27,398 nucleotides of DNA, from the IMG/VR virus record IMGVR_UViG_3300007516_002762, positions 1 through 27,398 of that record. One strand, 5' to 3'. A program made the position numbers and the translations under genes. Shown here in pieces: positions 1 through 22,027 of the stretch (positions within the stretch are counted from its first letter, which is position 1; every line of letters begins with the position of its first letter). The stretch is from a virus. Below the pieces are notes generated by a model. The model made no database searches, was not told where the DNA came from, and was given only the letters and a program-made list of their open reading frames with translations.

Positions 1-133
1 ATTTATATCCGATCAACCCAACAACCGGCTGACCGTCAACGCCAGTTGTTACCGCATCCCACACAAACGTAATTGTATCAGCGTACGTGCGGAGTGGCGC
101 TAGGAGTAGCAGAGCAAGTAAGATTTTTTTCAT
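1..133 (-). CDS. Partial secreted fibronectin-III-like protein (cut by window edge)
   Basis: The first 44 codons are visible; the gene runs off the left edge. The reading starts at ATG 133 behind a strong Shine-Dalgarno (AAAAGGAA, 4-5 bases upstream). Residues 1-18 are a classical signal peptide: MKK, a leucine-rich core (LLALLLLAP) and a TYA cleavage site. The mature part starts DTITFVWDAV and continues with DGQPVVGLIGYK, the first strands of a fibronectin type III fold (strand A with Trp, then the DGxP...GY motif). It resembles the start of the gene immediately upstream (78-467), so the two look like tandem paralogues. It overlaps the end of that gene by 56 bases in another frame. The role is unknown; it is expected to be exported. 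Confident that it is coding; less so of the fold. Confidence 0.72.
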   Translation of the reverse strand, partial: MKKILLALLLLAPLRTYADTITFVWDAVTTGVDGQPVVGLIGYK

Positions 134-467
134 AAATTCCTTTTCCTTTTATTGTAACTTTATCTGTTTTTACACTCTCGATGTTTTTATTATTAATAGA
201 TGCAATCTGCACATAGAAACAATCATTGTCCCCAACTAAAAACGGCCATTTAACCACGGTCTGATTTATTGCAAGAATCGGAAACACACTATAGGCGGAA
301 TTTTTGCGAGGATTATCAGAGGTAATGTAAATAGCGTACCCCTTGAGATCTGTCAGAGGAGATCCGTCAGTATTTATCAATGGGCGCTTCCACTCCGTCC
401 ACACTACCTCACCCCTCACCATGCCCATGCAACAACACGCCGCGATTGCGATAAGTATTCTGATCAT
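78..467 (-). CDS. Small exported protein with a fibronectin-III-like domain
   Basis: A 129-residue protein with a short hydrophobic N-terminus followed by one beta domain. Residues about 21-105 contain VVWTEW, then DGSPLTDLKGYAIY, and FYVQIASINN, which is the usual strand pattern of fibronectin type III modules (early Trp, DGxPL..GY.IY, later Y.V.....N). Two export readings are possible: signal peptidase I cleavage near residue 19 (VRG/E), or a lipoprotein, because IAAC at residues 8-11 fits a lipobox, although the hydrophobic core before it is short. It follows the metzincin gene after a 145-base gap and precedes a paralogous secreted gene. No strong Shine-Dalgarno lies at the usual distance from ATG 467; GAGAGG lies further upstream, inside a small hairpin. 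Function unknown. Confidence 0.7.
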   Translation of the reverse strand: MIRILIAIAACCCMGMVRGEVVWTEWKRPLINTDGSPLTDLKGYAIYITSDNPRKNSAYSVFPILAINQTVVKWPFLVGDNDCFYVQIASINNKNIESVKTDKVTIKGKGIYEKNLTCSATPSATPHVR

Positions 468-476
468 TTTAAAATG

Positions 477-491
477 GAGAGGTTTCCTCTC
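477..491 (-). promoter_or_regulatory. Small hairpin in the leader of the 129-aa gene
   Basis: A perfect 6-bp inverted repeat with a 3-base loop (GAGAGG, loop, CCTCTC) sits just upstream of ATG 467 on the coding strand. It contains the only GAGAGG run near this start, so it could mask a ribosome site. The surrounding gap (468-612) also shows TTACAG, 16 bases, TACAAA on the minus strand as a weak promoter-like pair. Both readings are tentative. Confidence 0.25.
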
Positions 492-612
492 ACTAGTATG
501 CTCAACTCCATTACATACGATTCTAATTTTTGTACTCTCGCCTCTAGGCTCAACGCTCTCTTCTTTGTAGCTCTTAAATTACGTACTGTAAGATCTTGAG
601 AGTTTTTCTTCT

Positions 613-1263
613 TTACCACTTTCTTATACACTTTTTTATCCTCTCACTTGTTTGGTTAGAGTAGCGGATTTTCGTCATCCTCTCAGTTCGCGCTAATGCA
701 TCGGCGTGCATGAGAGTGTTCGAATCCTCATGCTCTCCGCCCACTAAGTGCCCTAGCTCGTGTAAAAACGCGACAAGGGAATGTTCGAACCGTGGAGCTC
801 CGTAGTTATTAAACATCTCGGCGGTTGAGTACGCGGTGCCGTTTTTCTTACATACGCCCTCTGAGTATCCCGCCATCCAGTATAGGCCGCCGTCCTCAAA
901 CGGTGGAGTGATTGCATAATTAACATCCGCCCCCACACCGCGCCTACTAAACCATCCGTCCCACAGCCGCAAAAGTCGCAGTCTTTTAGATAGTCTCTTC
1001 TGCTCCTTGGGAAATGGATTAGAGATTATCCGGTATTTTTTTAGTACGAGAGGCTCTCCCATCTGCAGCGTAAATTGCATATTCGCGGCATTAAATAAAT
1101 TATCTGCCTCTTCCCTTGTTAGGCTATTAGGTCCCTGTGCTACGACAAGGTTTACAGAGATCTCCGCGTTCGCTCTGTCAATAAAAAAGAATGCCGTTAA
1201 GATTATCAGCACCCACAAGATTACTGATAGCGTGGTTCCGAGAAAGATCGTCTTTAGATTCAT
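613..1263 (-). CDS. Secreted metzincin-type zinc metalloprotease
   Basis: A 216-residue protein. Residues 1-33 form a signal peptide or signal anchor: basic NLK start, a long hydrophobic stretch (about 10-28) and an ANA site before E34. The zinc site HELGHLVGGEH at residues 168-178 matches the metzincin signature HExxHxxGxxH, with H168, H172 and H178 as metal ligands and E169 as the general base. A downstream NTLMH (Met185) is well placed for the Met-turn that defines metzincins such as matrixins. The region before it (35-165) has no recognised domain; two Cys (138 and 212) could form a disulfide after export. ATG 1263 has a good Shine-Dalgarno (AAGGGGA). It follows the holin-like gene after 13 bases. 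An exported peptidase beside a holin suggests a role in lysis, envelope damage or attack on host surface proteins; the substrate is unknown. Confidence 0.85.
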   Translation of the reverse strand: MNLKTIFLGTTLSVILWVLIILTAFFFIDRANAEISVNLVVAQGPNSLTREEADNLFNAANMQFTLQMGEPLVLKKYRIISNPFPKEQKRLSKRLRLLRLWDGWFSRRGVGADVNYAITPPFEDGGLYWMAGYSEGVCKKNGTAYSTAEMFNNYGAPRFEHSLVAFLHELGHLVGGEHEDSNTLMHADALARTERMTKIRYSNQTSERIKKCIRKW

Positions 1264-1276
1264 GTGGTCCCCTTTG

Positions 1277-1591
1277 TTAGGATGTCATTCCTGGTATTTT
1301 AACATGCCCTGAGCTGAGCAGATAAACTATTATCGCTAACAGGCCGAAGATGACAGTCCCTAATATTCCAAACATCGCCATAGCCGTTTTCGTCTGCAAG
1401 TGGTCCTTCCCCGTAGCCGCGTGCATTAAGTGCTCCTTAATGTCCTCAAGGACCTTTAATTTAGAGAGGTGCGGCAAGTGCTCCACCATAACCCTAATAG
1501 CCAGGTGCATTTCCGACACTTTGGTATACGCGTCTTTCCAGTTATTTCTTATCGCACAGCGCCCTTCCCCACTCTGCTGTCCCTCTTCCAT
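1277..1591 (-). CDS. Small protein with one C-terminal membrane segment, holin-like
   Basis: Starting at ATG 1591 the product has 104 residues. This start is preferred to the in-frame ATG at 1636 because it lies one base after the upstream stop (1593) and has TAGGA about 10 bases before it; the longer form would overlap the neighbour by 44 bases. Residues about 18-68 are helical and His-rich (EHLPHLSKL, EDIKEHLMHAA). Residues about 70-92 form one transmembrane helix (AMAMFGILGTVIFGLLAIIV), followed by a short tail. A soluble helix plus one C-terminal membrane helix is the layout of XhlA-type holin-associated proteins. The position between ejection proteins and a secreted protease supports a lysis role. 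No sequence signature proves holin activity. Confidence 0.65.
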   Translation of the reverse strand: MEEGQQSGEGRCAIRNNWKDAYTKVSEMHLAIRVMVEHLPHLSKLKVLEDIKEHLMHAATGKDHLQTKTAMAMFGILGTVIFGLLAIIVYLLSSGHVKIPGMTS

Positions 1592-1592
1592 T

Positions 1593-3602
1593 TTAATGGA
1601 TCCTATCTTGATTATGAATATTTGTGACTCTCTCAAGCTGACTGATCATGCCATCCATCTCTGGGCTTGTTGATGGGGGCTTAGCTTCCGCAGGATCAAA
1701 ATCTAGGGAAGCGCTAACGTCCGCTAAGTCAAAACTAGGAGCTGGTTGCGCCGGAGCAATGGCGCTAGGGGTAGGGTTCACCACGGCCTTATTCTGCCAT
1801 CCTTGGCTAATAATTAACGCCCTTTCAGAGGGAGATTTATTAAGTGCCTCTTTAAATGCAAAGTCCTTTTCTAACGGGTTAACCCATTCACCGTTGATAA
1901 TGTTGTAGTTATTAGGTCCGGGCTCTGCGTTAAAAGGGTCATTCGTTACTACCTGCTTGTGTAGCTCTATTTGAGCAGGCTCGGGAAGAATATTAAACGT
2001 TTGAGGAGGAACGCCTGTTTTTATGGCGATAGCAAGCTTTGCCATGGAATCGTTCTTAACTGCTGACCAGTCTCTGGGCATCTTCTTAGGCTGAGGCTGC
2101 ATCCCTGTCATATTCGCCAGATCGCTAGTCGCCGCCGTCGTACTAGCCATTACTGGACCAGTGGTATTTTTAGCAAAGTTTAGTGTGTTCGCCACCCCTT
2201 GTGCCGAGCTAGAGATAGCTCCTCTTACCCCTGGCTGATTTAGCTCTTCCGAGGCTATGTCCCCTATTGCACTACGTAGTCCAAAGTCTCCCCCCTCCTT
2301 TAATGCCTCCGCCGCCGCCACATTCTTTGAGTTTTGGAGAGTTGGTATAATAGACAGGTGTTGTTGTTGTAACCGCCCTAATTGCGCTAACTGTTCCCCA
2401 GCTCCAGGTCCTAATAATTCAGACGCCGTATTTTGAATCTGTTTATTAAGATCGTACTGCATAACCCTAGCGAGTACTTTCTCATTACTAGATGCCGTCC
2501 CCGTGTACCCCTTATTCTGGAGCGCCTGCTTTACTTTGTAGAGAGACCCAATAGTTCCGTCAGAATTCTTATTAATTTCAGAGATAAGCCGGGAGAACTC
2601 TTCCTTTAATCCAGCATCATAAGGGTGTTCAGTTAAAAACTTTTGCGCCTCCGTGAAGGTTGGGATAACCACGTCTTTTTGCGCGGCCCCAGCAGCGTCT
2701 AGAATAGAAGTCGCCTCAGCGCTCGCCGTATCTATTACCTGTCTATTTCTCGCTTGCAGAAGGTTAGGAGTATTCTCCGCCGCGTTTTGGCTAAACACCC
2801 CATTCTGTTTTGCCACCGCTACGGAGTCCACAAGGTTCGGTTCATCCATTGGACCGGAAGGGGAATATTTTTCAGCCTTCGCTAACGCCCCTTTCCCGAT
2901 TCCAAGGTCTGCAATCGCCTGTTCCTCGGGAGCTAAGGGAGCAGCTTTTTGAGAGAACTTCCCAAAGAATCCCCCTATTTTCCCTATACCCTCTCCAACC
3001 ACACCTAGGGCACCACCCCCAACCGCGCCAAGGGCGAGGCCGAGAGCCCCTTGCTTGAACCTATTCTCTGTCCCCTCTGCGTTCCCAAAGTTGTAAGCGC
3101 CCTCCAGCTCTCCACCAAGTAGAGCCGTCTTCCCTATCCTTCCTAGGGTCGTCGCTCCTTGTAAGGCGGGGCCCACTGGGAGAGCTGCCCCGCTAGCAAT
3201 GTCTACCCCTAAAGATGCGATAGGGGCGGTCTCATGTGCTGCTTGTTGATAACCTCGAATCTCTCCTAGATTTTTGTCGTACGCATCTCCAAATGAGGCC
3301 CCGGTTCCGCCAAGAAAGCCGGGCAACATTTCGCTCGCCGCTGCTCCTCCTGCAATAATCTCGTCTCCTAGTCCAAAGGGAACGATCTTGGATAGTCCTC
3401 CAGTGGCAAGGCGCGCATTTTGTATAAGGGGAGAATCCCCAGCTCCAAGAAGAGTATCTACGTTAGACGGTTGCGGTTGATAGGAATCATAGGCGGCAGC
3501 TAATTCTTCGGGCGTGTAAGCGGTAGCTTGCTGCTCGGGCGTGGAAGCGGTTTTTGCATACTCATCATAGGCGGCAGCTAATTCTTCGGGGGTGTATGGC
3601 AT
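1593..3602 (-). CDS. Large glycine/alanine-rich putative ejection (internal virion) protein
   Basis: A 669-residue protein, the last of three long helical genes after the hub gene, where P22-like phages carry their DNA-ejection proteins. The N-terminus has a duplicated motif, YTPEELAAAYD at residues 3-13 and again at 29-39, encoded by a near-identical DNA repeat. Residues about 70-215 are hydrophobic and rich in Gly/Ala (GLALGAVGGGALGVVGEGIG), typical of proteins that insert into the host envelope during DNA delivery. The rest is helical with many Gln and Asn. The C-terminus is Pro-rich and acidic. No transglycosylase or peptidase catalytic motif is seen. It starts directly after the preceding stop (TAA-ATG). 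The role rests on composition and gene position, not on recognised homology. Confidence 0.6.
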   Translation of the reverse strand: MPYTPEELAAAYDEYAKTASTPEQQATAYTPEELAAAYDSYQPQPSNVDTLLGAGDSPLIQNARLATGGLSKIVPFGLGDEIIAGGAAASEMLPGFLGGTGASFGDAYDKNLGEIRGYQQAAHETAPIASLGVDIASGAALPVGPALQGATTLGRIGKTALLGGELEGAYNFGNAEGTENRFKQGALGLALGAVGGGALGVVGEGIGKIGGFFGKFSQKAAPLAPEEQAIADLGIGKGALAKAEKYSPSGPMDEPNLVDSVAVAKQNGVFSQNAAENTPNLLQARNRQVIDTASAEATSILDAAGAAQKDVVIPTFTEAQKFLTEHPYDAGLKEEFSRLISEINKNSDGTIGSLYKVKQALQNKGYTGTASSNEKVLARVMQYDLNKQIQNTASELLGPGAGEQLAQLGRLQQQHLSIIPTLQNSKNVAAAEALKEGGDFGLRSAIGDIASEELNQPGVRGAISSSAQGVANTLNFAKNTTGPVMASTTAATSDLANMTGMQPQPKKMPRDWSAVKNDSMAKLAIAIKTGVPPQTFNILPEPAQIELHKQVVTNDPFNAEPGPNNYNIINGEWVNPLEKDFAFKEALNKSPSERALIISQGWQNKAVVNPTPSAIAPAQPAPSFDLADVSASLDFDPAEAKPPSTSPEMDGMISQLERVTNIHNQDRIH
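3487..3596. repeat. Direct repeat coding for duplicated N-terminal motif
   Basis: Two 32-base copies at 3487-3518 and 3565-3596 differ at a single base (tcataggcggcagctaattc onward). The period is 78 bases, or 26 codons, so the frame is kept and the motif YTPEELAAAYD appears twice in the 669-aa ejection-type protein. The near identity at DNA level suggests a recent duplication or pressure to keep both copies. Confidence 0.9.
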
Positions 3603-21610: not shown

Positions 21611-22027
21611 TTAAAATTCTTTAATTACGAAATCAAATTTTCTTACGTTTGACAGCATTTTAATGAACCTATCAAAGGCAACTTTAGATTGTAGGAGCAT
21701 CGGCTCTACATCGTGGTAGTTAACTCCCAGTCCTGGGAGTATACACCCGTGTGTATCTTTCAGGTAGTTGCCTACATGGAAGAGGATACCCGACCTATCC
21801 GGTACCAGTAGTACCTCATAAGTGATTGGGATAACCAATCCCCCGTCAGTGGTGCGGTTTTCTGTTCTCACGCATGAGTATCCGCCTGTAGGGATACTGG
21901 ACACCTTTGGGATGTTACTTAAGAATGGTCGTTCTAGTGCAAGGCAGCAGAAGGCTCCGTTGATTTTTATCACTCCGAATTGAGGGCCTGAAGTGACTCT
22001 TCCTACACGGAACAATTCGACTTGCAT
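21611..22027 (-). CDS. DUF5675-family protein
   Basis: A 138-residue protein with the features of DUF5675: an early LERP (residues 31-34), SIPTGGYSCVR (44-54), and the signature LFHVGNYLKDTHGCIL (82-97) with His84, Asn87, Asp91 and Cys95, followed by a helical end containing the usual acidic/aromatic positions. The His...Gly-Cys arrangement resembles L,D-transpeptidase active sites, and family members are common in phage genomes near lysis or tail genes, but no activity has been established as far as I know. A peptidoglycan role is possible; if so, this would be the only candidate endolysin in the window. It follows the short methyltransferase-like gene after eight bases. Confidence 0.85.
   Translation of the reverse strand: MQVELFRVGRVTSGPQFGVIKINGAFCCLALERPFLSNIPKVSSIPTGGYSCVRTENRTTDGGLVIPITYEVLLVPDRSGILFHVGNYLKDTHGCILPGLGVNYHDVEPMLLQSKVAFDRFIKMLSNVRKFDFVIKEF
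21723..21756. repeat. Two adjacent perfect inverted repeats
   Basis: ACTCCCAG-TC-CTGGGAGT (21723-21740, 8-bp arms) is directly followed by ATACAC-CCGT-GTGTAT (21741-21756, 6-bp arms). Both lie inside the DUF5675 gene, over the codons of the catalytic-like DTHGCIL segment and what follows. They could be an operator, an mRNA structure or chance under codon constraint. Confidence 0.7.

Follow-up and report, generated by a model that had tools for sequence, protein, structure and literature searches.

The analysis of a linear, 27,398-base virus record, referred to here in its entirety as the window, points to a single-domain metzincin without a prodomain that is encoded in a phage late operon and is kept by selection. 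The protein, P0001, has 216 amino acids and is predicted to be exported. A gene had originally been predicted at 613..1263, and these coordinates were correct, but the open frame exists only on the minus strand (1263..613), the plus strand there having many stops. The assignment combines the open frame, Pfam profiles, a structural model and fold comparison.

Sequence features of P0001

The zinc-binding motif HELGHLVGGEH occupies residues 168-178 (H168, E169, L170, G171, H172, G175 and H178), exactly as the original prediction had numbered its intact HExxHxxGxxH site. Met185, proposed there as a possible Met-turn, follows His178 by seven residues; both the methionine and this spacing are invariant among the relatives aligned. 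Together they form the signature HELGHLVGGEHEDSNTLM (residues 168-185; 709..762, minus strand), located by pattern scan and by invariant positions in relatives. The DNA pattern for HExGHxxGxxH-x6-Met had a single match in the window, and 100 shuffles gave none. Profile search against metzincin families, suggested at the outset as a check, gave scores above the curated Pfam cut-offs for Reprolysin_5 (32.7 bits, cut-off 27, 1.1e-7) and Reprolysin_3 (26.7 bits, cut-off 22.4, 8.5e-6). Metalloprotease families were the sole matches: no peptidoglycan hydrolase domain was found in P0001 with Pfam or PHROGs, and PHROGs gave zero matches of any kind. The PF00413 profile also had zero matches in the window's record, because P0001 is reprolysin-like by profile.

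Signal peptides were called from hydropathy and motif. In P0001 a strongly hydrophobic stretch at residues 10-28 is followed by an AxA/E junction, in agreement with the signal peptide claimed earlier. The putative signal peptide or signal anchor spans residues 1-33 (1165..1263, minus strand) and ends in ANA/E, where SPase I would cleave. The catalytic domain begins straight after it, with no zymogen prodomain, so that the mature form would have about 183 residues. It is possible that the long hydrophobic stretch serves as an uncleaved membrane anchor instead of a cleaved signal.

Fold and family assignment

An AlphaFold2 model was obtained from seven related phage proteins (pLDDT 76.9). Its predicted fold, structure prediction having been one of the checks suggested at the outset, is that of a metzincin catalytic domain of the ADAM type: comparison with human ADAM17/TACE gave Z 18.2 and an rmsd of 2.5 Å over 179 residues, adamalysin II gave Z 17.4, and Foldseek was concordant, with metzincin matches throughout. 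From sequence alone, the family profile found snake venom metalloproteinases, adamalysin and fragilysin, while more distant relatives score just below the Reprolysin cut-offs in Pfam. No targeting domain beyond the catalytic one was seen in the model.

ADAM17/TACE and adamalysin II both belong to M12B and resemble P0001 in predicted fold over about 180 residues (Z 17-18). P0001 differs in sharing 13-18% identity with M12B proteins, in having no prodomain, disintegrin or other domains, in carrying Glu for Asp and in coming from a prokaryotic virus. An Asp directly past the third zinc His (HExxHxxGxxHD) is a typical feature of M12B. In the window and in its closest relative, L001, this residue is Glu179, and in other members it is Ala, Val, Ile or Thr. 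The astacin (M12A) signature HExxHxxGFxHExxRxDRD does not fit P0001, in which the Glu past the third His is present but Phe and RxDRD are missing. Because the M12B Asp varies, the prodomain is missing and the astacin signature fails, neither family was assigned; judged by sequence and model, P0001 is an ADAM-like metzincin of unassigned family. Fragilysin and the Bacteroides bacterial metalloproteinase-II are bacterial metzincins with a similar ADAM-like fold, but are products of the bacterium itself and possess a prodomain, and the comparison is one of fold neighbours only.

Relatives and conservation

One close homologue, L001, was found in viral contigs and is 91% identical to P0001 over the aligned part. 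A divergent member, L006, was recovered by profile search of the record of G002, a backbone relative of the window. Motif scan and profile added L055, L128, L059 and L082 among the matches listed, and the L055 protein recurs in another record, L130. The frame is intact in eight records. When seven proteins with 20-91% identity to P0001 were aligned, only twelve columns proved invariant: Met1, Gly69, Pro121, Cys138, His168, Glu169, Gly171, His172, Gly175, His178, Met185 and Cys212. The zinc motif, whose loss in close homologues would have spoken against the original prediction, is kept in all those found. Comparison of the window and L001 genes gave a pN/pS of 0.136, indicating purifying selection. 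No homologue in cultured phages was detected by tblastn in 50,697 phage records, and genome_contigs scans revealed none in bacteria or prophages.

The invariant Cys138 (850..852, minus strand) and Cys212 (628..630, minus strand) presumably sit where adamalysins have a disulfide, going by known structures. M12B enzymes appear to have their Cys pair, one Cys ahead of the zinc motif and the other near the C-terminus, at matching places, and by this analogy a Cys138-Cys212 disulfide is likely in P0001.

The DNA of the window and that of L001 are unrelated before codon 24, yet an AxA-type ending is present in both. A sharp recombination boundary lies inside the signal peptide (window 613-1263 against L001:6016-6621), joining the gene to two different phage backbones; downstream of it DNA identity is 92% and then 99%. 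Since the first 23 or so codons are unrelated and the ending is kept, the predicted export has been maintained through recombination. Hydrophobic N-termini with an AxA or AHA ending were observed in the window, L001, L006 (G002) and L055. The L059, L128 and L082 proteins have no signal peptide, their sequences opening directly with the fold's first strand, and retain the Cys138/Cys212 pair.

Gene neighbourhood

All long genes of the window are on the minus strand, and terminase, SU10/P22-like portal, SU10-like adaptor and capsid genes were identified with Pfam or PHROGs. These data support the phage late operon of the original prediction as the location of the metzincin gene. The genes of the region are tightly packed, and nothing above chance was found in a search for a separate promoter near the metzincin gene. 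Of the large virion genes, the final one ahead of the module encodes a 669-aa protein (1593..3602, minus strand) that matches PHROG 5880 and is a probable internal virion protein. It is followed, directly upstream of the metzincin, by a gene for a 104-aa protein (1277..1591, minus strand; 119 aa if TTG at 1636 is the start), in which hydropathy shows one C-terminal TM-like stretch. Of the earlier description of this neighbour as a one-TM holin-like protein, the TM-like stretch is upheld; no Pfam match above cut-off and no holin family match were found, and 'holin-like' refers to topology only. The protein may be a holin or some other membrane protein involved in lysis.

On the other side, a 55-aa ORF with a GTG start, coiled-coil-like by eye (464..631, minus strand), overlaps the 3′ end of the metzincin gene; it has a homologue in L001, and a similar small ORF, also judged by eye, lies behind the G002 metzincin. 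Two exported proteins follow. The first has 129 residues (78..467, minus strand), is Fn3-like by eye and a possible lipoprotein with an IAAC box by eye, and accompanies the metzincin in L001. Only the start of the second (2..133, minus strand) precedes the contig end; by comparison with L001, where it has 117 aa, it is cut. A Pfam scan found no recognized endolysin in the window, an absence that means little in a fragment. A DUF5675 protein (21611-22027, minus strand) has an H...THGC arrangement resembling, by eye, L,D-transpeptidase (YkuD) active sites and is a possible cell-wall enzyme.

The window and L001 have in common the metzincin gene (DNA identity 92% where shared) and, at 99%, the 129-aa gene, and their upstream genes differ. 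In L001 the metzincin is surrounded by small membrane-type ORFs whose starts and stops overlap: at its start the gene overlaps a 63-aa ORF's stop, at its end a 41-aa one-TM ORF, and it is closely preceded by a 95-aa one-TM gene. No homology was found between the one-TM neighbours of the window and those of L001. The 41-aa ORF (L001:6606-6731) is missing in the window at about 631; the gap carries a short direct repeat suggestive of a deletion.

Elsewhere the position of the gene varies. In L055/L130 it is between head genes, in G002 and L059 in a convergent or early-type operon, and in L128 upstream of the terminase genes. Besides the metzincin, both G002 and L059 encode a GH24 lysozyme. The convergent operon of L059 also contains a signal-bearing SLT transglycosylase (L059:3701-4198, minus strand), with a lipoprotein-like ORF adjoining, and a small phospholipase A2-like protein with an HDWAY motif by eye (L008:2787-3104, minus strand) has the same operon direction as the G002 metzincin. 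The scanned proteins of G004 (the L130 record) and of part of G001 (the L001 record) include an integrase, RecT and a protein with an Acb2/Tad1 hairpin domain (anti-CBASS type). Structural genes at L003:13425-14615 and L055:5149-6720, from different phages of the same metagenome, contain a near-identical protein segment (GGVATSLGQKAEASSIPVVLATEQDTAKDGTETSQG...).

Other phage metzincins

The view that metzincins are foreign to phages had to be abandoned: the metzincin pattern occurs in at least 120 stretches of viral contigs, Maribacter phage Colly_1 has an annotated matrixin, and the Listeria metzincin Mtz has been published (PMC8235301). By sequence pattern, metzincins are common in viral contigs, and phage metzincins as such are already known.

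Among the matches listed, eight exported metzincin-type proteins of a separate phage clade are encoded 0-40 bases behind an endolysin-type gene of conserved sequence. Amidase_2 was found in all six of these upstream genes that were scanned with Pfam. Loci with an Amidase_2/PG_binding_1 endolysin followed by an exported metzincin-type protein include L014:4695-6179, L096:4226-5712, L041:4307-5863, L031:3779-5217 and L121:337-1830. This gene order was not described in the literature searched. The clade is a separate metzincin-type group that matches solved metzincins weakly and so bears on P0001 by analogy, and the linkage, stemming from one clade, may reflect one evolutionary event. Lysis genes were not found to be enriched near exported phage metzincins: of 111 immediate neighbours, no more than 8 matched any single endolysin/amidase PHROG, counted without a control set, and the identified endolysin/amidase neighbours all come from the one clade.

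A different arrangement is seen at L020:7915-9012 (also L079), where one frame combines an N-terminal export signal, a matrixin (M10) and Peptidase_M15_3; this fusion matches a PHROG endolysin. A large group of M10 proteins in viral contigs, related to one another, comprises, among the matches listed, L018, L024, L026, L027, L034 and about 26 more loci, and L018, the member scanned, has an N-terminal PG_binding_1 domain. PG_binding_1 is also present in matrixins elsewhere. Like P0001, the Colly_1 and PG_binding_1-M10 proteins are metzincins in tailed-phage genomes, but they are of the matrixin sequence type and often have a peptidoglycan-binding-type domain.

Proposed role

Our leading interpretation, which we put at slightly less than an even chance, is that P0001 is an envelope-directed accessory of lysis or release, an exported ADAM-type protease predicted to cleave its substrate. 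The metzincin would be made late, together with virion proteins, and its own signal peptide would direct it through the inner membrane, after which the Cys138-Cys212 disulfide would form. It would then cleave at least one target protein in the envelope of the host, either an envelope tether or a phage-encoded partner (the 129-aa exported protein, for instance), which would make cell lysis and virion release easier, and would act beside a peptidoglycan hydrolase, not in its stead. The motif, the homology, the fold, the export signal, the purifying selection and the place in the late operon come from sequence or model; we infer the disulfide, the activity, the target and the effect on lysis.

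This role is proposed because the gene lies, in the window, behind the virion genes and, there and in L001, next to small membrane proteins, because other phage metzincins follow an amidase endolysin or are fused to an M15 peptidase, and because Listeria Mtz-Tim offers an analogy. The phage-derived Mtz and the lipoprotein Tim sensitize cells to phage lysis, raise virion release about 5-fold in a manner dependent on Mtz catalysis, and are often encoded downstream of holin-lysin genes (PMC8235301). In a full-text literature search for endolysin and matrixin this paper was the only match. Compared by description only, P0001 resembles Mtz as a secreted metzincin with a Sec-type signal, an extended zinc motif, a Met-turn and an exported protein encoded alongside; Mtz differs in belonging to Firmicute prophages or their remnants and in having a TIMP-like (lipo)protein partner. 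By analogy the 129-aa neighbour could be a partner comparable to Tim. A TIMP-like partner was not accepted for P0001, the model of the 129-aa protein (pLDDT 37.7) being too poor to judge TIMP-likeness. Against a fixed lysis role are the varied gene positions in relatives, the signal-less L059, L128 and L082 proteins and the unrelated one-TM neighbours of the window and L001. Replacement of the endolysin was considered and rejected: G002 and L059 have their lysozyme as well, and the window has the DUF5675 candidate, so that the metzincin probably does not replace an endolysin. Among the three roles raised originally, namely attack on envelope proteins, aid to release and action outside the host, aid to release is the best supported.

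Action after lysis or outside the cell, with the protease allowing virions to spread untrapped by clearing away debris, surface layers, receptors or matrix, seems to us rather unlikely. Metzincins are typically secreted (PMC8235301), and the signal-less members, which would be freed at lysis, keep the Cys pair, as would fit an oxidizing place; however, there is no targeting domain beside the catalytic one, and the long hydrophobic N-terminus of the window protein may hold it at the membrane. Superinfection exclusion, in which the exported enzyme would trim a receptor off the surface of the infected cell and so keep other phages out, is less likely still. Accessory genes commonly show such a variable genome position and exchange of modules, and four members would be exported before lysis, but relatives without a signal peptide could not reach a live cell's surface and the window gene is grouped with late virion genes. 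A maturation protease, or a virion-borne entry protease, would suit the gene between head genes in L055/L130, and zincin-like proteases of jumbo phages have been proposed for maturation (PMC7824862). We nevertheless consider it improbable, as signal peptides would take the protease out of the assembly compartment and other phages place the gene differently. A cargo gene benefiting the host or lysogen and not the lytic cycle is very improbable: the single integrase and single RecT mean that a relative may be temperate, but the tight packing within the late operon and the promoter search speak against it. Finally, an inactive remnant or pseudo-enzyme is hardly credible given catalytic residues that are all invariant across divergent relatives, the pN/pS value and the intact frames.

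Phage lysis is usually described in terms of membrane proteins, peptidoglycan enzymes and spanins. A lysis-cassette protease is absent from PMC10847048. A broader proposal is that, in phages of hosts assumed to have a Gram-negative-type envelope, an exported ADAM-like protease is a dedicated lysis protein that cuts protein links of the envelope, either in place of spanins or together with them, and that this is a general but overlooked step used by several unrelated lineages; we regard this as doubtful. The metzincin family of the window is unannotated in PHROGs and in the collection of 50,697 phage records, and the amidase-metzincin gene order provides a second, cleaner system for the lysis role. 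If exported metzincins are a regular part of lysis modules, proteolysis of envelope proteins would be an additional step in phage lysis.
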